A DNA stretch of 41,352 nt, from positions 1-41,352 of the forward strand of contig JACRPR010000053.1 of NCBI GenBank assembly GCA_016223105.1. Direction: 5' to 3'. Shown here one piece after another: positions 8,326 to 20,171 of the stretch. The translations under genes were made by a program, and so were the position numbers. Source of the DNA: Chloroflexota bacterium (GTDB taxonomy: Bacteria; Chloroflexota; Anaerolineae; UBA4142). The notes under the pieces were generated by a model. That model was given only the letters and a program-made list of their open reading frames with translations, was not told the origin of the DNA and did no database searches. Every line of letters starts with the position of its first letter. The stretch's first letter is position 1.

Positions 8326-9147
8326 AAAAAGCAAACCGGCTGGCGATTATTTTTACAAACCGTGATCGGACGTTCGTACCCGCGCGTGATCGGAATGCAA
8401 CGCGAAAAATCGTGGATGTTCTTTGATTTACTTTTGCCACTGCTCCCAATCGCGGCGTACGTATTTGTTTATCGCGCGATGCGCGCGCCCGAAGAGTACG
8501 TCGGGTTCGTTGTGTTCGGCGGCGCGATGACCGCGTTCTGGCTCAACGTGTTGTGGGCAATGTCGTCGCAGTTGTATTGGGAAAAAGAGCAGGGCAATCT
8601 CGCGCTCTACATCATGTCGCCCGCGTCGATGATGGCGATTTTGTTTGGGATGGCGATGGGTGGATTGTTCGCGACTTCGCTCCGCGCGTTTATAATTCTG
8701 ATCGTCGGCAGTTTTCTTTTTAGCGTGCAATACGCGGTCGTCAGTTTTCCGCAATTGCTCCTGGTTTTTCTTTTGGCGATGACTGCGCTGTACGGAATGG
8801 GGATGATGCTCGCGTCGCTCTTTTTGTTGTTGAGCCGCGAGGCGTGGCACCTTTCGAATCTCGCGCAAGAGCCGATCTATTTGCTTTCGGGATTTTATTT
8901 TCCGATCAAATCGCTCAACTTTTGGGTCGCCGCGTTTTCATCGCTGATTCCGCTCACGCTCGGTCTCGATGCGATGCGCCAACTCGCGTTTCCGTCCGGC
9001 GCGAAACTGGGATTCCTCTCGGTCGAAATTGAAATCGCGGTGCTAATCGCGTTGAGCGTGATTTTTCTCGCGGCGGCGCGCGTTCTGCTCGCGTATATGG
9101 AAAAGTTGGCGATTCGCGAAGGACGATTGACGGAGAGTCGGAGGTAA
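8323..9147 (+). CDS. ABC-2 type transporter permease
   Basis: Multi-TM protein; ATGA overlap with the ATPase; LSNLAQEPIYLLSGFYFPIKSL. Confidence 0.85.
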   Translation: MKKQTGWRLFLQTVIGRSYPRVIGMQREKSWMFFDLLLPLLPIAAYVFVYRAMRAPEEYVGFVVFGGAMTAFWLNVLWAMSSQLYWEKEQGNLALYIMSPASMMAILFGMAMGGLFATSLRAFIILIVGSFLFSVQYAVVSFPQLLLVFLLAMTALYGMGMMLASLFLLLSREAWHLSNLAQEPIYLLSGFYFPIKSLNFWVAAFSSLIPLTLGLDAMRQLAFPSGAKLGFLSVEIEIAVLIALSVIFLAAARVLLAYMEKLAIREGRLTESRR

Positions 9148-9150
9148 GTT

Positions 9151-9243
9151 GCAAGTGGTAATTGGTAATTGGTAATTGGAGATTGAGAGAGTGGAAATCA
9201 TTATTCCTAAATCTGAAATCCTAAATTTGAAATCTGCAATTAG
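9151..9243. repeat. Heptad tandem-repeat island C
   Basis: GTGGTAA TTGGTAA TTGGTAA TTGGAGA TTGAGAG ... AAATCTG AAATCCT AAATTTG AAATCTG CAATTAG. Confidence 0.7.
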
Positions 9244-10075
9244 GTCGTTCCGCCTCGCGACCTGGCTCGGCTGGCAGATCGAATCGAACTGGACGGATCC
9301 GTTTTTGTTCGCGGTGTATTCCATCGTCAAGCCGCTCGCGAGCGCGCTGATCCTGGTCGTGATGTACAGCATCATCACGCAAAACGATTTCGCGTCGCCG
9401 TTATTTCCGTATATGTATCTTGGTAACGCGTTCTACATTTACGTCGGCGCGGTGATGGTCGGCGTGTCGTGGGCGGTGATTGACGATCGCGAGCATTACA
9501 AAACGCTCAAGTACATTTACGTCGCGCCGGTCGAAATTCCATTTTACCTGATCGGGCGCGGCGTCGCGCGCTTTATCACCGGTTCGGTCGCGGTGTTCAT
9601 CACGATCACCGCGGGCGTGTTGTTCTTGCGCGTGCCGTTCGATTTTGCCGCGATCAACGCGCCGCTCTTTATCGTCTCGCTTTTGATCGGCGTGATTATG
9701 CTTGCGATGATCGGCTTGATTCTCGCGGGGATCACATTGCAAATCGCGCAACACGTTGGCTTTATCGGCGAGGCGGTCGCGGGCGCGTTGTATTTGTTCA
9801 GCGGCGCGATCTTTCCGCTCGACGTGCTTCCCGAATTTCTGCGCCCCATCGGTTACGCGATGCCGATCACGTATTGGCTCGAACTGTTACGCCGTTCGCT
9901 CGTCGGTTCGGTCGCGAATGCGTTTCCAACGCTCGCAAATTTCAGCGACGCGCAACTCCTCGCGATCTTGATCGCGCTCACCATTGTTTTCGCGCTCATC
10001 GCGATTTTTGTTTTTCGCTATTGTGATCGCCGCGCGCGTGAGCGCGGGCTGATTGATCGCACGTCGAATTATTAA
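9176..10075 (+). CDS. ABC-2 type transporter permease (start uncertain)
   Basis: Multi-TM protein with VGFIGEAVAGALYLFSGAIFPLDVLPEFLRPIGYAMPITYWLELLRR; N-terminal codons lie in heptad repeat. Confidence 0.82.
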   Translation: MEIERVEIIIPKSEILNLKSAIRSFRLATWLGWQIESNWTDPFLFAVYSIVKPLASALILVVMYSIITQNDFASPLFPYMYLGNAFYIYVGAVMVGVSWAVIDDREHYKTLKYIYVAPVEIPFYLIGRGVARFITGSVAVFITITAGVLFLRVPFDFAAINAPLFIVSLLIGVIMLAMIGLILAGITLQIAQHVGFIGEAVAGALYLFSGAIFPLDVLPEFLRPIGYAMPITYWLELLRRSLVGSVANAFPTLANFSDAQLLAILIALTIVFALIAIFVFRYCDRRARERGLIDRTSNY

Positions 10076-10185
10076 CGCGGGATTCAATTCGCCAACCGTT
10101 TTCCGCCCCCCTTTTTCCGCGCCAAGCCCGCTTCGCATTGATCGTCACCTCGAAGGCGCTCGCCGATGATTTTTGTTTTGACATC

Positions 10186-10455
10186 AAGACCTTCGCCAAA
10201 TTGTCCGTACCCCTGAAATTTTCCACTGACGGAAAGGAACACGGACAATCGAAAAAAATACGGCTCTTCAGGAATTAGTGGGGTAGCATAGCCCCTTGTG
10301 GGCGTTGGAATGGAAAAGCACGCGCACAAGGCGCTATGCTACGCGACTAACTCCACCGATTCCTGGAGAACAAAAAATACGAAAAAAAGTCCGCGTTCCT
10401 TTCCGTCAGTGGAAGAAATTTTTGGTTTTGGCGAAGGCATTAACATCAAGACTTG
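10186..10455. repeat. Composite nested palindrome; contains copy 2 of the 116-bp element (10261-10376)
   Basis: Outer arms ccttcgccaaa ... tttggcgaagg and tccactgacggaaaggaacacggac ... gtccgcgttcctttccgtcagtgga around the core element. Confidence 0.75.
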
Positions 10456-11501
10456 GTTTTCATGCTCGAGGCGCACTCGGCGCAATGCAAAACACCTTGC
10501 CGATTCACGCGCAGTTCAAACGTGGGGCGTTGGCAATGCGGACAAACGAGCGCGTCCGTTTTTTCGACGAGCGGATCCCAGGTCAAGGTGAGCGTCGCGG
10601 GATGGATGGTCGGAAATTGTTTTGCGGTAACGCGCGTGGAAATGAACAGGCGCGGAATTTTAACGTGTAGGAGATTGACCAATTTGAGTTGCACGCGCAG
10701 TTGCGCTTTACGCGTAAGTTCATCGAGTCGCAATGCTTCTTCGCGATTGAGCGCGTTTTGGCGCAAGCCCAACGATTCGCTTTCATCGCCGCGCGCATGC
10801 GCTTTCTCGATACGCTCCGCGAGTTCCGCGCGCAAATCGGCATAGTAGCGTTTCATCCGCTCGGTCTGCTCGCCTAGGCGAACCTGGGTTTGATGTTGCC
10901 GCGCGTGCACATCGGCGCGCACCGTGCGGACGATCGCATCGCGCGCGGCAACATATGCGCGCTCGAGCGGCTGGGATGTCGCGTCGGCGAAGGTCCACCG
11001 CCGCGTGTCGGCAAACCGTTGTCCGTTCAGCAATTCGTCGAGATAGCGCACTTGGCGATTGTAATAGCGGTCGAGCGCGAGCGGGTACAGCGCTTGTTCT
11101 TTTTCATCTCCCAGGTACGTAACCTCGAACCAAAAAAGCGTGTGCGTCACATAGCGCGGGCGAATCTGTTCGATCCGCAACGCGACCGCTTCCGGCAAAA
11201 CCAGGTCGCGTGTCACGCGTTCCGCGAGCGCGTGCGGGCGCAAATGCGTGTCGTCGAGAAACGCCAAGCCGATTTGCCCGCGCATCTGCGCGCGCGCCAG
11301 CACATCGTCGAGGAGCGCACTGCCGAACGTGAGCAGTTGCGCCGACGGATGTTCGGGCAACGCGTCGGGATCGAAGGCAACGCGCATCGGCGTATCCGCA
11401 TCGGGCATCAGCACATCGTACACTTGCGGCTCGATCGCATCGGCTAGTCCGCCGACGGCATCCACGTATTCAATTAAAAATTGCTCCAAAGGATCGGTCA
11501 T
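10446..11501 (-). CDS. Uncharacterised protein with C-terminal zinc ribbon, third gene of helicase/methylase cassette
   Basis: MTDPLEQFLIEYVDAVGGLADAIEPQVYDVLMPD...CPHCQRPTFELRVNRQGVLHCAEC; 7 bp downstream of the helicase stop. Confidence 0.8.
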   Translation of the reverse strand: MTDPLEQFLIEYVDAVGGLADAIEPQVYDVLMPDADTPMRVAFDPDALPEHPSAQLLTFGSALLDDVLARAQMRGQIGLAFLDDTHLRPHALAERVTRDLVLPEAVALRIEQIRPRYVTHTLFWFEVTYLGDEKEQALYPLALDRYYNRQVRYLDELLNGQRFADTRRWTFADATSQPLERAYVAARDAIVRTVRADVHARQHQTQVRLGEQTERMKRYYADLRAELAERIEKAHARGDESESLGLRQNALNREEALRLDELTRKAQLRVQLKLVNLLHVKIPRLFISTRVTAKQFPTIHPATLTLTWDPLVEKTDALVCPHCQRPTFELRVNRQGVLHCAECASSMKTKS

Positions 11502-11508
11502 TGTCAAA

Positions 11509-13629
11509 CTATTCAGGCGCGAATTTCTCTCCGAACAATTTTTCTTCTTGCGCGCGCTGACGCAAATAATTTTCTTTTGCCGCGAGCACCTGATCGCCGA
11601 GCCGGTCGAGCGCGGTCCGAAAATCGAGATCGTCGCGCGACTGCGCCCACAAATCGGTGACGATCTCTTCAAATTCCTTTTCCTCGTTCAGGTTTCCCAG
11701 GATCATATCAATCTCGCCAATGACCAATTCGAACATCGCGATTTTCGCTTCGAGCAAATGCAACACCGCGGCTTCGAGCGTATCCGCCGCCGCGAGGTTG
11801 AACACGAACACGTCGCGCGCTTGTCCGATGCGGCTCAAACGTCCGACGCGCTGTTCGATCTTCATCGGATTCCAGGGCAAATCGAAATTGCACACGGCAT
11901 TGCAGAATTGCAGATTGCGCCCCTCGCTTCCCGCGTCGGTGCTGAGCAAGATGCGCGCGTCGTTTTGAAATTGCCGAATCGCTTGCTCCTTTTCGAGACG
12001 CAACAAGCCGCCGTGAAACGCGACCACTTGTTCGCCCGCGTCGCGCAAACACTTTTGCAACCATTCCTGGGTCGCGCGAAATTGCGTGAACACAACCATC
12101 TTGTCGGGAAAATCTTTGAGAAGCGCGCGCAAGCGGTCGGCTTTGCTGTTCTCCGTCAACGCGCGCGCCGTGTCCGCGAATTGCGCGAGCGTCGCGCGTT
12201 CGGTATCGGGCAATCGTTCATCCGCCGCGAGGCGCGCTAGCGTCGGCGCGGCGGCTTGGCTCGTGCTCCCGAGTTCTTTTTGCAAGGTGATGAGCGACAT
12301 CCGCGAGAGCACACGTTTGGATTTGGAATCGCTGGGCAGGGTCAGGTGTTGGCGCACGAAACGCGACACGGCATCGTACAGCGCGCGTTCTTTTTCATTC
12401 AGCGTAACGAGATGCGTTTTCGCGATGCGGCGCGTGAGCGCGAGTCCGACGGTCGAGCGACGATTCCGCACCATCACTTCAGCCAGCAGACGATGCAGTT
12501 CGTCCACATTGCGCGGCATTAATTTGTCGCGGCGATCCACGAATTGTTTTTGGAATGAACGCGCGGTACTGAGGAGACCTGGTTGCAACAGCGTAACGAG
12601 GTTGAATAATTCAGCGAGGTCGTTTTGCACGGGCGTCGCGGTCAACAGCAAAATGTACTGACGGCGCAACTCGGATGCCATTTGCCACAACTGCGTGGTG
12701 CGATTGCGAAAGTGATGCGCCTCGTCTACGATCACCAAATCCCAGTCCTGGTTGAGGATCGCGGCGCGATGCGGTTCGCGTTTCGCGGTGTGGTACGACG
12801 CGATGATGCGGTCGTGCGTTGCCCAGGCGCGCGCGCCTTGCTCGCGAAAACCTGGGTCGTCGTGAACGATGAAATCCAAACCAAACTTGCGGCGCATCTC
12901 GCCTTGCCATTGCTCGACGAGCGACGGCGGCGTGAGAATCAACACGCGGCGCGCGAGTCCGCGCACGACGAGTTCTTCAAGAATGATGCCGGCTTCAATC
13001 GTTTTGCCCAAGCCGACTTCGTCGCACAAGAGCGCGCGACCGCGCAGTCGGCGCAAGACGGTGCGCGCGGTGGAAAGTTGATGCTCGAGCAATGCGACCT
13101 CGCGCAACCAGGGCAGGCACAATAGTTGATCGAACCCGGCGACCATCGCGAGGCGCGTGGCTTGGAGCGCCAAGCGAAAATCGCGCCACCGCGCGCGCGC
13201 GGAACGATTCTCTAATAATGCGACATCGTCGGGGCTGAAAGAAATTAAATCGTTGGGCGCGGCGGCAGTGAGTTGAATCGGCGGAGGCGCTTCGACGCGG
13301 AGGCGAAAACGCGCGGGCATTGCACTGACACATTCGAGGACGAGCATCCCCAGTTGCGCGGAGCGGGCGAGCGGACGTAAATGCTTGACGCTTTTGAACG
13401 CGCCTTGCGCGGCGTTGAATTTGAGCGCGGTCGGCTCGGCGTCTGTCTCAATCACAACTTCGGCTTGGCTGAGCGCGCCGGCGAGAACGGGGTCGAGCGA
13501 CAAAAGACCTTGGCGCAACGCGTCCGCGTCCGCGTTCAATTCGATGCGGTCGCCAATCTGGAAACCAGGTTCGATTATCTGGGGAGCGGTCACGCGCGAC
13601 ATTATAGCCCCATTCGCGCGATCTGCCAA
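11509..13629 (-). CDS. SNF2-family (RapA/HepA-like) DEAD/DEAH-box helicase
   Basis: LLCDEVGLGKTIEAGIILEEL, LVIVDEAHHFRN, LLLTATPVQNDLAELFNLV, STDAGSEGRNLQFCNAVCNFDLPWNPMKIEQRVGRLSRIGQ. Confidence 0.95.
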   Translation of the reverse strand: MADRANGAIMSRVTAPQIIEPGFQIGDRIELNADADALRQGLLSLDPVLAGALSQAEVVIETDAEPTALKFNAAQGAFKSVKHLRPLARSAQLGMLVLECVSAMPARFRLRVEAPPPIQLTAAAPNDLISFSPDDVALLENRSARARWRDFRLALQATRLAMVAGFDQLLCLPWLREVALLEHQLSTARTVLRRLRGRALLCDEVGLGKTIEAGIILEELVVRGLARRVLILTPPSLVEQWQGEMRRKFGLDFIVHDDPGFREQGARAWATHDRIIASYHTAKREPHRAAILNQDWDLVIVDEAHHFRNRTTQLWQMASELRRQYILLLTATPVQNDLAELFNLVTLLQPGLLSTARSFQKQFVDRRDKLMPRNVDELHRLLAEVMVRNRRSTVGLALTRRIAKTHLVTLNEKERALYDAVSRFVRQHLTLPSDSKSKRVLSRMSLITLQKELGSTSQAAAPTLARLAADERLPDTERATLAQFADTARALTENSKADRLRALLKDFPDKMVVFTQFRATQEWLQKCLRDAGEQVVAFHGGLLRLEKEQAIRQFQNDARILLSTDAGSEGRNLQFCNAVCNFDLPWNPMKIEQRVGRLSRIGQARDVFVFNLAAADTLEAAVLHLLEAKIAMFELVIGEIDMILGNLNEEKEFEEIVTDLWAQSRDDLDFRTALDRLGDQVLAAKENYLRQRAQEEKLFGEKFAPE

Positions 13630-13672
13630 TTGACGGCGCGCCGCGCGGTTGATGTGCGTTGCTCCAGTTGTG

Positions 13673-16600
13673 CTATTTTGTTTTTGCTCTGCGCCACAAT
13701 TCTTTTACGACGCGCGCTTGCATCTGCTCGTCCGCGGTAAATGCCGCCACATTTTCGCTGAATAGTTGATCGAGTTCCGCGATCTGCGCGCGATACGCGT
13801 CCAATGCGTGCTTGCAAATCGTCGTGTCGCGCGGAATAGAAACCTTGCCGCTGATTTCGTTTACAATAAGTTGCAACGCGTACTCGGCGCGTTCGGCTGA
13901 TCCAATCGCGACGTATTGACCGCCGATGCGGAGCGAGTTGGGGTTGAACATATCATTCGTGACGAGTTGCGCTTTGCCCGGCGGAAGCAAAATTGAATCG
14001 GTTGCCGCGTTTGCGGGAACAAAAGCATCTAACATTTTGGCAATCGGTTTTGTTTCCAGCGTATCCCAGATTTCATCCGCGATCGATTGCGGCGACGGGC
14101 GACCGCGCCGCGCGGTCATCGAGCGAAACTTTTGCATCTTTTTTTCGGTCGCGCGAATTTCGCGGTAGAGGATGGTCATTGCTTTGTACAATTCCGCGCA
14201 CAGTGCTTCGCGTTCTTTCGCTTTGGTGATGCCAAGCAATTCCAAAACCGCGTCGTCCAATTCCTGGCGGTCTTTCAAAAGTAATTCACCAGATGGTAAA
14301 AGCCCAACGCCATCTACCTCAACCAGTGAAGAAGTTTTCCGTTTGTGCATTGATGCAATTGCTGCACGTAGTCGCTTCGCGATTTCTTTGTTCGCAAGTC
14401 GCGCATCTGGCACAAGCATCATCCTCACATCTACAACTTCAGTTTTCAGAGCGCCTTCACGCCCAGCATAGCGTCCAAATTGATGCTTGCTCAATGTAAC
14501 GACGGTCGAGTTTAATACCGCCCACCACAAATCGGAATCACCATCTGTCGGAGAAACATTGTAGAGATTGCAGTTGACAATGTATTCAGGTTTGTTCAAA
14601 GGGACAATGTGGCGATACTGCTGAGATTTGGACCAAAGAATTGGTGCAGGTTCATCTGCTTGAAGATCATACCATTGTCGCGACGCTGTTCTACCTATAA
14701 TCGAGGTTCCCTGATTAAAGCCCTCCTGCTCGCCCCAATTGATATAGCGCAATGCATTCTTAAAACCAAGTTTGCGCAATTTGTCTTTTGATAGTGAACA
14801 AAGGAAGATTTTGTGTTTGAGATTTGCAGGTTCAACTTCAAGCGTATCTATCTCCATAAGATTGAAAACAAGCGGCTGAAGAAATTTGGCTTCAATTAGA
14901 TGAACGGAACCGTCACCCGCTCTTACGACACGAATCTTCTTAGTTTCAGATGGAGTAATTCCATAGTGATTTTTGAAATCGTGCGGCTTGGTGAAGCGCG
15001 CCAATTCCTCGTCAGTGATGTCACGCGGATAAAAGAATTTGTCACAACCACTGATTATACCGATTTGGATTCGAGCCACTTCATTAAACGGTACAAATTT
15101 GTCTTTCGCGCGTTCCATCAACTTGAAAAAGATTTCGGGCGCGCGGAGGAAAATGCCCCACTTGTAGCCCACGTAATCGTCGGCGGGTGCGGTTACGTTG
15201 TATTCCGCACTTTTCTCGTGCAAAATTTTCTGACCGCCGTTGCCATTTCCATTTCCATTTTCTTCGTCTTCGTCTTCACTCACCTGAATCTTGGAATATC
15301 CCAGTGCGTACAAATCGCCTTGCCGAATGCTACGCACGCGGTAATCGTCTGTTGTCTCGTTCTTTTTGAGCGATTCGATGTGATCGCGCAATTGCTCAAA
15401 ATATCTCTGCCGCGCGTCTTCATCGTCGTAGCGTTCCAACATCTCGGACAGTTCGCGTTGAATCTTGACGAAATGCACGATGTTTGCCGCGCGCTTGCCA
15501 TCGTCCGATTGTCGGCGCAAAATTGTCGCGGCAGTCGACACGCGCGCGCCCGTGAACCAGGGTTCGCTGGCTGATTCAAAAATCGCGATGATTTCAAAAT
15601 TATCGAGCAAGTATTTTTGCAAACGAAAACCATACGACGTGTCGAGCCAGGTCGAACTGGTCAGCAAACCAAGATAGCCGCCGTCTTCGAGGAAGGATGC
15701 CGCGTGCGGAAAAAAGTAAACGTGAATATCCGAACGCCCCGAAAGATTTGCGCCGCGCGCTTCTTTCTTGGCAATGTCATCTTGCAAAAATCGCTTGTAC
15801 GGCGCGCCATAGTACTCGGTGATTTTTTCTTGGCGCACATACGGCGGATTGCCAACAACGGCATCCACTTTGCCGATGCCTTCCATTGGAATTTGTCCGT
15901 TGTAATTTCCCAATGGCACAACGAACGGCGTGCTATTCAAACGCACTTTGAAAAAATCCTGGCGCGCGACGAGCGGATAATTTGCCTCGTCAATCAAATC
16001 GCGCGTGACTAGGTTGATCGTCGTCAGGTGAACGGGATACGCGGAGATGTCGAAACCGTAAAGTTGCCGAATCAAATCGCGATGATGCAACGCACCGTTC
16101 GAGAGTGCGCGCTTGCGCGCATAGGCGCGGACGAGGAATGTGCCGCCGCCGCACGCGCCATCGAGTACGCGGGCTTCGGGTTTGCGAATGCAAAACGTGT
16201 TGATGAGGTCAACGACTTCGCTTCGCGTATAATGTTGTCCGTACTTGTGGCGTTCTTCAGTCGAAAGTAATCGCTCGAAAATCAAGCCGATGACTTCGTG
16301 ATTGATTTGTGTGAAATCAAAACCGTCGGTTTGGTCGCTCAACTCACGCCAACTGCCCACCGCCGCGTCGTTTAGAAATGGAAGCGTGTCGCCGAATCCA
16401 CCTTGAAAAACGGTTTCGTAATCGCCAGTCGTTTTGAGCGCGTGCTGAAACAAATCTTCCAAATGCTTGCCGAGTTCCGCGCCTTGTGTTACCGATTGAG
16501 GAATTCGGAGCGCGCGCATTCGATTGAAACGTCGGCGCAGTGCTTTGTAAAAAACGATTTTGTTCGCGAGAACATAGCAACTGAATTTCGCCGCGCGTTC

Positions 16601-17278
16601 CAAATTGTCGCGGACGATTTCTTCATCGTTCGATAAAACCCAGCCCTGTTCGTCGCGCATCCACTTGTCCAAATCGCGTTTGAATTCTTTCCCGCGTTGG
16701 TACTGCTGGCTAATCGCGGCGAGCGTTTGCGCGACCGGTTGCTCCAGACTCGACTCGTATGCGAAAATAAATTTAGCGTCAAGCGGCAACAAGAGCATCG
16801 GTTGTTCGCCAGAGATCAGCGCGGCGAAACGTTGGAGGAATGTGAGCAGGAAAGAATCAATTTGATTGAGGACACGCGGATGGCGCGTATCGTCGCTGTT
16901 GTGAATCGGCGCGGGCAAGACGTTGTAAGTTTCAACTGCGCGCTCGGTGATCGGCTTGCCGCTTTCCAATGTTTTCCAAAGCACAAGGCGATTCACGTTC
17001 CAGGTAAAGTTGTACTCTGCGCCAACTTCATCGGCTTTGCGATGCGCGTCTTCGACCACGCCTTGTTGCAACGGCGTGCGCCCTTCGGGACTATCCGGCA
17101 TTTTCACTTCGCCCGTCAAAACGATTTTACTCGCGCGATCGTACAGCGTAATGTCGCGGCGTTTGACACTGCCGCGCGCCCGCGCTTCGGTGAACGGCAA
17201 TTCTGAATGTGCCGTCAAAATTTGATTGATGCGCGAAACGATGTCAGCGGTAAATTCCCATTCGGTTGTTTGTGGCAT
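13673..17278 (-). CDS. Type IIG-like restriction-modification enzyme / Eco57I-type N6-adenine DNA methyltransferase
   Basis: SAM motif VLDGACGGGTFLV, catalytic VVGNPPYVRQ; N-terminal RRDITLYDRASKIVLTGEVK resembles a PD-(D/E)XK core; TRD-like QIGIISGCDKFFYP. Confidence 0.9.
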   Translation of the reverse strand: MPQTTEWEFTADIVSRINQILTAHSELPFTEARARGSVKRRDITLYDRASKIVLTGEVKMPDSPEGRTPLQQGVVEDAHRKADEVGAEYNFTWNVNRLVLWKTLESGKPITERAVETYNVLPAPIHNSDDTRHPRVLNQIDSFLLTFLQRFAALISGEQPMLLLPLDAKFIFAYESSLEQPVAQTLAAISQQYQRGKEFKRDLDKWMRDEQGWVLSNDEEIVRDNLERAAKFSCYVLANKIVFYKALRRRFNRMRALRIPQSVTQGAELGKHLEDLFQHALKTTGDYETVFQGGFGDTLPFLNDAAVGSWRELSDQTDGFDFTQINHEVIGLIFERLLSTEERHKYGQHYTRSEVVDLINTFCIRKPEARVLDGACGGGTFLVRAYARKRALSNGALHHRDLIRQLYGFDISAYPVHLTTINLVTRDLIDEANYPLVARQDFFKVRLNSTPFVVPLGNYNGQIPMEGIGKVDAVVGNPPYVRQEKITEYYGAPYKRFLQDDIAKKEARGANLSGRSDIHVYFFPHAASFLEDGGYLGLLTSSTWLDTSYGFRLQKYLLDNFEIIAIFESASEPWFTGARVSTAATILRRQSDDGKRAANIVHFVKIQRELSEMLERYDDEDARQRYFEQLRDHIESLKKNETTDDYRVRSIRQGDLYALGYSKIQVSEDEDEENGNGNGNGGQKILHEKSAEYNVTAPADDYVGYKWGIFLRAPEIFFKLMERAKDKFVPFNEVARIQIGIISGCDKFFYPRDITDEELARFTKPHDFKNHYGITPSETKKIRVVRAGDGSVHLIEAKFLQPLVFNLMEIDTLEVEPANLKHKIFLCSLSKDKLRKLGFKNALRYINWGEQEGFNQGTSIIGRTASRQWYDLQADEPAPILWSKSQQYRHIVPLNKPEYIVNCNLYNVSPTDGDSDLWWAVLNSTVVTLSKHQFGRYAGREGALKTEVVDVRMMLVPDARLANKEIAKRLRAAIASMHKRKTSSLVEVDGVGLLPSGELLLKDRQELDDAVLELLGITKAKEREALCAELYKAMTILYREIRATEKKMQKFRSMTARRGRPSPQSIADEIWDTLETKPIAKMLDAFVPANAATDSILLPPGKAQLVTNDMFNPNSLRIGGQYVAIGSAERAEYALQLIVNEISGKVSIPRDTTICKHALDAYRAQIAELDQLFSENVAAFTADEQMQARVVKELWRRAKTK

Positions 17279-17388
17279 TGCCGATTCCTTGTTTAGGATG
17301 TTTGGATTATAGCGTGAATAAAAATTTCCGCAAGAGTCATTGTTGATGCTTGTCGCGATTTTCTTGTTGTGCTACAATGCCGCTCGCT

Positions 17389-18420
17389 ATGGCAAACACA
17401 ATTATTCAAGTTGACCATCTCTGCAAATACTACCAGGTTCACCAAAAAGAACCAGGTTTGATCGGCTCGCTCAAATCATTTGTCGCGCGCAAGTACAGCG
17501 ATGTCAAAGCGGTGGACGATGTGTCGTTCGCGATTGATGCCGGCGAAGTCGTCGGCTTTCTCGGACCGAACGGCGCGGGCAAAACGACGACGCTCAAAGT
17601 CTTGTCCGGTTTGTTGTATCCCACGCGCGGCGTCGCGCGCGTGCTCGATTTCACACCGCACGAACGGCGCGCCGCGTTTCTGCGAAACATCACGCTCGTG
17701 ATGGGGCAGAAGCAACAACTCAACTGGGATTTGCCGGCGATGGATACGTTTCTCGTCAACGCGGCGATTTACGAAATTCCCGATGAGCAATTCAAAAAAA
17801 CTCTAGCAGAATTGACGGAACTTTTGGAACTCACGCCGTTGTTGAAAAAGCAAGTCCGCAAGTTGTCGCTCGGTGAGCGAATGAAATGCGAACTGTCCGC
17901 CGCGCTTTTGCATCGTCCCCAGGTTTTGTTTCTCGACGAGCCGACGATCGGTCTCGACGTAACGATGCAAACAAAAATTCGCCAATTCATCGCGGATTAC
18001 AACGCGCGTTATGGCGCGACGATCATTCTGACGAGTCATTACATGGCGGACGTAACCGCGCTGTGCAAACGCGTCATCGTGATCGATCATGGCAAGTTGT
18101 TGTACGACGGCGATCTGCACGCGCTCGCGGAAAAGATCGCACCGCACAAATTGATCCGCGTCGAATTTTCGCAACCGCTAAACGGGCAACGGCTCGCCGA
18201 GTACGGCGAAGTCGTCAAGGAGCGCGGACAGCGCGCCGAGTTGTTGATCCCGCGCGATCAAACCTCCCAGGTCGCCGCGCGGATGCTAGCCGAACTGCCC
18301 ATCGCCGACGTAACCATCGAAGAACCGCCCATCGAAGACGTGATCACGCGCGTCTTTGAGCAAGCCGCCCGCGCCCGCGCCGAACGCGGGGAGAGTGATG
18401 AAAATGATAATGATGAGTAA
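17389..18420 (+). CDS. ABC transporter ATP-binding protein
   Basis: GFLGPNGAGKTTTLKVLSG, LSLGERMKCELSAALLHRPQVLFLDEPTIGLD. Confidence 0.92.
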   Translation: MANTIIQVDHLCKYYQVHQKEPGLIGSLKSFVARKYSDVKAVDDVSFAIDAGEVVGFLGPNGAGKTTTLKVLSGLLYPTRGVARVLDFTPHERRAAFLRNITLVMGQKQQLNWDLPAMDTFLVNAAIYEIPDEQFKKTLAELTELLELTPLLKKQVRKLSLGERMKCELSAALLHRPQVLFLDEPTIGLDVTMQTKIRQFIADYNARYGATIILTSHYMADVTALCKRVIVIDHGKLLYDGDLHALAEKIAPHKLIRVEFSQPLNGQRLAEYGEVVKERGQRAELLIPRDQTSQVAARMLAELPIADVTIEEPPIEDVITRVFEQAARARAERGESDENDNDE

Positions 18421-18425
18421 GGTAC

Positions 18426-18494
18426 GTAAATCGTAATTCGTAATTCAAAATTCATTCGGCGCAGAATTACGAATTGCGATTTACGAATTATTGG
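18426..18494. repeat. Heptad tandem-repeat island D
   Basis: AAATCGT AATTCGT AATTCAA AATTCAT tcggcgcag AATTACG AATTGCG ATTTACG AATTATT. Confidence 0.75.
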
Positions 18495-19291
18495 AATTGC
18501 TTATGCTGATCAAATACGCCGTGCTCCTCCGCCGCTCCTTTTCCGCGATGCTCGAATATCGCGCGATGATTTTTATCTGGATGCTCACGAACGTGATGCC
18601 GCTCGTGATGCTTGCGGTGTGGTTCTCGCTGTCCGAGGGTGGACCGATCGCGGGGTATTCACAAAACGATTTCGTCGCGTACTATTTGCTCATCACGTTC
18701 GTCCGCCAAATGACGAACGTGTGGGTGATTTGGGAAATTGATTACGAAATTCGCCACGGCGATTTTTCGATCAAGTTACTGCATCCGCTCAATCCGATTC
18801 ACGAGTACATCGCCAGCCACATCACCGACAAATTTTTACGGCTTGCGGTGATGATCCCGCTCGGAATTTTCGCGTGGATTATTTTTCCAACAATTCATTA
18901 CGATCTCACATTCACAACCGTTACACTTTTTCTGATCGCGCTCGTCGCGTCCTGGCTCATTCGATTTCTGTCCCAGTATTGTTTCGGCTTGCTCGCGTTT
19001 TGGATTTCCGCATCCACCACGCTGAACGAGATTTGGTTCGCGACCTCGTTGATGCTCGGCGGCATCGTCGCGCCGCTCGATCTTTTTCCGGCAAACATTC
19101 AACTCATCGCGAAATACTTGCCGTTTCGATATATGTTCGCATTCCCGGTCGAAATCGTGTCGGGGCGATTAGCGCAAACCGAACTCATCAACGGTCTCGC
19201 CGCGATGCTGGGTTGGTTGATCGTTTCCGTCGTCGTCTATCGTTGGTTGTGGCGACGCGGCTTGAAACACTTTAGCGCGTTTGGTGCGTAA
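18491..19291 (+). CDS. ABC-2 family permease (DUF990-like)
   Basis: FRQ/DY-type motif VRQMTNVWVIWEIDYEIRHGDFSIKLLHPLNPIHEYIASH; APLDLFPANIQ; multi-TM. Start possibly 18503. Confidence 0.85.
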   Translation: MELLMLIKYAVLLRRSFSAMLEYRAMIFIWMLTNVMPLVMLAVWFSLSEGGPIAGYSQNDFVAYYLLITFVRQMTNVWVIWEIDYEIRHGDFSIKLLHPLNPIHEYIASHITDKFLRLAVMIPLGIFAWIIFPTIHYDLTFTTVTLFLIALVASWLIRFLSQYCFGLLAFWISASTTLNEIWFATSLMLGGIVAPLDLFPANIQLIAKYLPFRYMFAFPVEIVSGRLAQTELINGLAAMLGWLIVSVVVYRWLWRRGLKHFSAFGA

Positions 19292-19298
19292 GGCAAAT

Positions 19299-19372
19299 GT
19301 CATTGCGAGCGCACTTTGCGAAGCAATCCCCACCGCGCTGATCGGGGATTGCTTCGCTCCGCTCGCAATGAC
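19299..19372. repeat. GTCATTGCGAG-family palindromic repeat
   Basis: gtcattgcgagcgcactttgcgaagcaatcccc ... ggggattgcttcgctccgctcgcaatgac. Confidence 0.9.
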
Positions 19373-19385
19373 AGAATGAAAAAAT

Positions 19386-20171
19386 ATGCGTTACCTAAGA
19401 CTCCTTTCCGTCTTTTACAAATACTCGCTCCTCAAAGAACTCGAATACCGCGTGAATTTCATCTCCAACATTTTCATGAGCGTGTTCTGGGTCGGGTGGG
19501 GCATCCTCGGCGTTTCGATTTTCTTTTTGCATCGCGACTCGATGGGCGATTGGTCGTTCCCGGAAGTGCTGATGGTCGTCGGCTTGTTCACATTGTTTAC
19601 GGGCGTGATGGAAGCGTTCTTGCGCCCAAACGTCGGCGCGGTGATCGAGCAGATTCGCGACGGCACATTCGATTTCGTGTTGACGAAACCGATCAACGCG
19701 CAATTCATTGCGAGTTTGCGGACGATTGTTTTCTGGCGATTGGCGGATGTGCTCATCGGCTTGAGCATCATCGTGTACGCGCTGGGACAATTGCACGCCG
19801 CGCCAAGCATCGGACAAATCGCGTTCTTTGTTGTGATGCTGGCATCGGGCGCGGTGATCGTCTATTCGATTTGGTTGATGATGGTATCGCTGGCATTCTG
19901 GTTCGTAAAAATTGATAACATCGCCGAATTGTTTTACGCGTTCTACGAAGCGGGACGATACCCGGTAACAATTTATCGCGGCGCGGTGCGCGCGTTACTC
20001 ACGTTCGTCGTGCCGGTCGCGTTCGTTACAACATTTCCCGCGAGCGCACTGCTCGGCAAAATTGACGTCACGACCACGCTCACCGGTTTCGCGTTCGCGA
20101 TTGGATTATTCATCGCGTCGAATCGCTTTTGGAATTTCGCGCTCACGCATTATGCGAGCGCGTCAAGCTAA
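19386..20171 (+). CDS. ABC-2 family permease (DUF990-like)
   Basis: LKELEYRVNFISNIFMSVFWVGWG..., IRDGTFDFVLTKPINAQFIASLR; paralogous layout to preceding gene. Confidence 0.85.
   Translation: MRYLRLLSVFYKYSLLKELEYRVNFISNIFMSVFWVGWGILGVSIFFLHRDSMGDWSFPEVLMVVGLFTLFTGVMEAFLRPNVGAVIEQIRDGTFDFVLTKPINAQFIASLRTIVFWRLADVLIGLSIIVYALGQLHAAPSIGQIAFFVVMLASGAVIVYSIWLMMVSLAFWFVKIDNIAELFYAFYEAGRYPVTIYRGAVRALLTFVVPVAFVTTFPASALLGKIDVTTTLTGFAFAIGLFIASNRFWNFALTHYASASS

Follow-up and report, generated by a model that had tools for sequence, protein, structure and literature searches.

The window analyzed here, a stretch of 41,352 nucleotides that forms contig 249 of a 5.5-Mb draft Chloroflexota genome, carries three adjacent minus-strand open reading frames (ORFs) at positions 10446 to 17278, with no further large ORF beside them. 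In the direction of transcription, these encode P0001 (13673 to 17278, minus strand; 1201 aa), P0002 (11509 to 13602, minus strand; 697 aa from an ATG start), and P0003 (10446 to 11501, minus strand; 351 aa). An earlier note on this DNA, made from the letters alone, had described the genes as a tightly packed operon with gaps of 43 and 7 bp and as a candidate defense cassette. The ORFs, their strand, and their tight packing were confirmed, as was the second gap of 7 bp. The first gap measures 43 bp only if P0002 begins at an alternative TTG codon at 13629 (giving 706 aa), and 70 bp from the ATG at 13602.

On either side of the three genes lies an ABC-2 transporter operon on the plus strand (window positions 7458 to 20171). 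For one relative (G001, locus L263), the left flank joins the far right flank directly, without the three genes, and for another (G006) the two flanks are on separate contigs, while the helicase genes sit on a third; locus L260 (G011) is a further comparison locus for the ABC-2 flanks. Since relatives lack the three genes between these flanks, which are either joined or rearranged, the site is variable. At the downstream end of P0003 lies a palindromic repeat (10175 to 10452), a member of a dispersed repeat family with 81 matching places in the genome (whole or partial, on both strands), including 6183 to 6308 of the window.

P0001 is predicted to be a complete one-chain restriction-modification enzyme, of a known and ordinary kind. 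Pfam detects Eco57I (E value, 1.4e-19) and N6_Mtase (3.6e-15), the best PADLOC model is REase_MTase_IIG (2.7e-45, residues 41 to 651), with DrmMI far behind (3.4e-15), and sequence relatives in the Protein Data Bank (PDB) include the BseCI methylase. The N6-adenine methyltransferase core (15419 to 16306, minus strand; residues 325 to 620, with Pfam N6_Mtase at 328 to 613) contains DGACGGGTFL at 373 to 382 and NPPY at 477 to 480, and beyond it a target-recognition region is expected. The N-terminal PD-(D/E)XK nuclease domain (16919 to 17278, minus strand; residues 1 to 120) carries the motif RRDITLYD...GEVK at 40 to 59, which is kept in relatives as RRDLTLLDR...LTGEVKLP; across 22 sequences, D42 is invariant and E57 and K59 are nearly so. 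When residues 1 to 320 were modeled with AlphaFold2 (pLDDT 89.8), the sole PDB match below an E value of 0.001 was BpuSI, a type IIG enzyme (2.8e-5), with HsdR nucleases among the subthreshold matches. Nuclease, adenine methylase, and expected target recognition are found together in one polypeptide, the arrangement of a type IIG enzyme; the type IIG-like character, the PD-(D/E)XK-like N-terminus, and the N6A methylase core claimed in the earlier note are all borne out.

As in type IIG enzymes such as BpuSI, a nuclease, a helical connector, and an N6-methylase occupy a single chain, although P0001 belongs to a distinct family, with full-length relatives of ∼40% identity in many phyla. P0001 can also be likened, by description as a fused methyltransferase-endonuclease rather than by sequence, to TkoI and TkoII of Thermococcus kodakarensis, which are described as large polypeptides of that type (PMC8172983). 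The full-length relatives (∼38 to 41% identity) come from Hydrogenedentota, Nitrospinaceae, Brocadiaceae, beta- and gammaproteobacteria, Zixiibacteriota, and others, whereas the nearest Chloroflexota relative is ∼35% identical or less. The gene has a GC content of 0.503 and a third-position GC of 0.556, compared to a third-position GC of 0.68 to 0.70 for the two helicase genes, and both of its values fall below those of these two genes and of most neighbors. Given this lower GC content and the better relatives outside Chloroflexota, P0001 looks like a recent arrival. A role in defense, which is established in kind for type IIG enzymes, is possible for P0001.

P0002 is one half, the SNF2 ATPase, of a RapA/DrmD-type helicase that is split in two. 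Its SNF2 core, which RapA-type helicases share, has intact motifs (GLGKT at 197, DEAH at 293, and RVGRLSRIGQ at 585) and is matched by the Pfam families SNF2-rel_dom (1.1e-41) and Helicase_C (6.6e-22), in agreement with the intact SNF2 motor noted earlier. The best PDB match is RapA (7e-49), and the best PADLOC and NCBIfam model is DrmD (7e-82 and 1e-82), with a score of 279 bits against a DrmD cutoff of 610. No close relative of the helicase was found in phages.

The third protein had been described as ending in CPHC...CAEC and belonging to no recognizable family. Both points stand: P0003 matches no Pfam family above cutoff, no NCBIfam or PADLOC model, and no PDB protein by sequence, and a search of PDB sequences with the P0003 profile retrieved just weak matches to coiled-coil proteins. 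Among 20 relatives of P0003, PADLOC gave scattered weak matches, with none for the window protein. Identification as a zinc-ribbon transposase or an SprT-type protein was rejected, the corresponding Pfam matches being far below cutoff. Homologues with 60 to 85% identity are present in related genomes (17 of 100) and others occur on three mobilizable cyanobacterial plasmids; viral contigs yielded no relative. From its secondary structure, P0003 may be read as a small alpha+beta domain and a beta sheet into which two long helices are inserted, followed by the zinc ribbon (10473 to 10544, minus strand; CPHC at 320 and CAEC at 340). The columns of C320, C323, and C343 are invariant in the family alignment (A4), and the cyanobacterial versions have no zinc ribbon, so that this element is dispensable. 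There are also proteins of ∼700 aa in which a RapA C-terminal-like region precedes up to 25 CxxC motifs, with no SNF2 gene beside them (L130, 9070 to 11205; L133, 3373 to 5538; L134, 9276 to 11372; L136; L138; and L142).

Rather than founding a new partner family, P0003 corresponds to the C-terminal half of the helicase, detached as a gene of its own. An AlphaFold2 model (pLDDT 89.1), built from an alignment from which the plasmid sequences were left out, was compared to the PDB with Foldseek, and below an E value of 0.001 only four entries were retrieved, all of RapA (1.4e-7 to 6.4e-6, over 306 to 318 columns). One-gene DrmD/RapA-like helicases of Chloroflexota continue past the ATPase with a tail of mostly ∼350 to 550 aa. 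The profile of the P0003 family matches these tails, including DrmD-like ones, with a probability of 94 to 97% and E values down to 1.4e-11, compared to at most 6% probability for reversed controls, and the match starts where P0002 ends. In Escherichia coli RapA, the best segment for the P0003 profile is residues 756 to 786, collinear with RVAFDPDALPEHPSAQLLTFGSALL of P0003. P0003 has weak direct sequence similarity to RapA and to the sister one-gene helicases, and its kinship with them rests on fold and collinearity. This weakness, together with the lack of a sequence family and the existence of some many-CxxC relatives of ∼700 aa without an adjoining helicase, might favor an unrelated zinc-ribbon protein that is merely linked to the helicase gene. 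Such a protein, however, would not be expected to find RapA as its only significant fold match or to give a collinear profile match that reversed controls do not, its zinc ribbon would not be expected to be dispensable, and sister one-gene helicases carry in their tails the same GHPL motif as P0003, along with a coiled coil. We consider an unrelated partner most improbable. A RapA-type C-terminal half is present at the locus, supplied by a separate gene.

P0002 and P0003 are referred to below as the helicase dyad. In all 44 dyad loci collected from Chloroflexota and cyanobacterial plasmids, the two genes are adjacent, on the same strand, and in the same order, with the SNF2 gene immediately upstream of the P0003 homologue; in many, the two genes overlap by 4 bp. 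The two halves that RapA carries in one chain are encoded by two genes in 44 of 44 loci. In a tree of ATPase domains, for which the sample was mostly from Chloroflexota, 33 of 33 sampled split helicases fell into one clade (support, 0.996), whose sister group consisted of two one-gene helicases (support, 0.995). A single ancestral split of the helicase would be the simplest reading of this tree. Co-occurrence, order, strand, and single origin mark the dyad as a conserved two-gene unit, and the homology of the helicase, its division, the strict linkage of its parts, and their common origin are in our view established. Our search of the openly accessible literature turned up no description of a RapA-type helicase divided in this way, and in a BREX survey that treats BrxHII at length, the word "split" is absent.

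The dyad resembles several known machines without being one of them. RapA (HepA), the RNA polymerase recycling ATPase of E. coli, has the same SNF2 core and C-terminal half but is a single chain of 968 aa, whereas the dyad consists of two chains; P0003, unlike RapA, ends in a zinc ribbon, and RNA polymerase binding is a property of RapA that extends to the dyad only by analogy. DrmD (class 1 DISARM), BrxHII (type 3 BREX), HmaA (DUF499/BR systems), and ArmA (ARMADA) are likewise RapA-like SNF2 motors, with anti-phage roles; the dyad differs from these in being split in two and in having none of their partner genes. The window helicase is of the broad RapA-like kind, without their defining partners. 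The likeness to DISARM that had been drawn holds for the helicase, which resembles DrmD, and fails for the methylase, which scores far better as a type IIG enzyme than as DrmMI. As had also been pointed out, drmA, drmB, and drmC are absent. DISARM, including a compact form, was rejected: drmA and drmB are missing (the flanks are the ABC-2 operons), the helicase falls far under the curated DrmD cutoff, and the methylase is not of the DrmMI type. For the Hma or DUF499 BREX-related systems, in which RapA-like helicases accompany DUF499 ATPases (PMC12839542), no DUF1156 appeared among the Pfam matches, and no DUF499 ATPase was seen among the ORFs beside the three genes when these were judged by eye. 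As a separate observation, a recurrent Chloroflexota operon encodes an AAA ATPase (BrxC/D-like), a HerA/DUF87 translocase, a protein of ∼420 aa, an N6 methylase, and a second BrxC/D-like ATPase (L148, 1647 to 10458; L149, 4016 to 12459; L208; and L145); its methylase is large and related to P0001, with a degenerate nuclease motif, and the operon is a candidate HerA/BREX-like system.

The reading of all three genes as one cassette is not supported by their distribution. No relative of P0001 is found at any other dyad locus, and neither an SNF2 gene nor a P0003 relative is found at any of 74 loci of P0001 relatives, some of which lie on short contigs. The triad does not co-occur at any of these loci, and this lack of co-occurrence for the methylase is the outcome that the earlier note had named beforehand as refuting its proposal. 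A single three-gene anti-phage system, with the type IIG enzyme as the self-marking component and the helicase pair as its effector in the manner of a compact DISARM, Hma, or ARMADA system, would account for the tight packing on one strand, and it has precedents in the RapA-like helicases that recur with PglX-like methylases in class I DISARM and ARMADA (PMC12458937) and with N6-methylases in DUF499 systems (PMC12839542). In addition, DNA methylases nonhomologous to P0001 are encoded upstream of two further dyads, on the same strand as the dyad: a type ISP/IIG enzyme at a distance of 102 bp (L108, 3715 to 6840) and, 1.1 kb away, a PglX-like methylase (L036). Against such a system, besides the failure of the genes to co-occur, stand the composition of the methylase gene, which is foreign to its neighbors, and the fact that P0001 needs no partner, since it carries its own nuclease. 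Altogether, we regard a three-gene system as very unlikely. For methylases directly upstream of a dyad, ∼0.03 cases are expected over these genomes and two were seen (the window and L108), with a P value of ∼3e-4 that was computed post hoc. The association of dyads with DNA methylases is therefore weakly nonrandom, but does not amount to a fixed system.

The genomic surroundings of the dyad were also compared to a control set, for which 82 genes were taken from the same contigs. Many neighbors are ordinary metabolic genes, and a wide scan against this set revealed no family that dominates. Defense genes are commoner beside dyads than in the control set, where no Wadjet or methylase matches occurred, although the numbers are small. 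Among the 397 genomes of the class, 27 carry the Wadjet gene jetA. Eight genomes have both JetA and a match to the dyad family, and in four of them jetA lies ∼1.5 to 6 kb from the dyad (L025 in G011, L105 in G333, L116 in G125, and L119 in G548). Under uniform placement, this proximity has a P value of ∼4e-8, which should be read loosely because two of the four genomes belong to the same family and the comparison was unplanned. At L105, a distance of 115 bp separates the end of jetD from that of the P0003 homologue.

Taken together, the evidence makes it highly probable that the locus holds two independent units side by side, a type IIG enzyme and a two-gene RapA-type helicase of which P0003 is the C-terminal half. 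In the first unit, a single polypeptide would recognize a short DNA sequence and methylate host adenine, while its N-terminal PD-(D/E)XK nuclease, to judge from its family and conserved residues, would cut unmethylated incoming DNA. In the second, which we take to be a DNA-tracking motor, the P0002 ATPase would translocate along double-stranded DNA and P0003 would supply the C-terminal half. The two chains presumably reassociate into one RapA-like machine, which may then strip or remodel proteins on DNA.

The dyad could be a housekeeping, two-chain RapA that recycles RNA polymerase and has no role in defense, with the type IIG enzyme as a separate restriction system. This fits the identity of its solved relative, RapA itself, its presence in six of seven other genomes of the same family that are at least 93% complete, its sequence identities, which track those of PurA inside the family and order, and the many metabolic genes around it. 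Within the class, on the other hand, the dyad is patchy, its third gene being found in 54 of 397 genomes (∼41 with near-full-length matches). In one genome (G031), the identity of its helicase reaches 70%, against 44% for PurA, which points to horizontal transfer. With no gene order shared among loci around the dyad and with copies on mobilizable cyanobacterial plasmids, these identities indicate that the dyad also moves between families. Its clustering with Wadjet weighs further against a housekeeping function, which we consider rather doubtful. Since the dyad clusters with Wadjet and with other restriction-modification genes, a role against mobile DNA is plausible; we put this at roughly an even prospect, somewhat likelier than RNA polymerase recycling. 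Given the methylases at L108 and L036, some functional link between dyads and restriction-modification enzymes may exist. A more specific proposal, offered only tentatively, is that the dyad acts against plasmids or phages as an autonomous motor that spreads horizontally, alone or in aid of resident systems such as Wadjet and type IIG/ISP enzymes. Its C-terminal chain would then be an exchangeable module for sensing or docking, with zinc domains that range from none to ∼25 CxxC motifs.

The new element at this locus is the two-gene RapA-type helicase, and the neighboring type IIG enzyme is of a known kind. A chance neighborhood is thereby kept from being named a new three-gene system, and a family of unknown function is removed, P0003 being the missing half of a known machine. 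A naturally split RapA-type motor would offer a clean way to probe the poorly understood C-terminal half of RapA, BrxHII, and DrmD.
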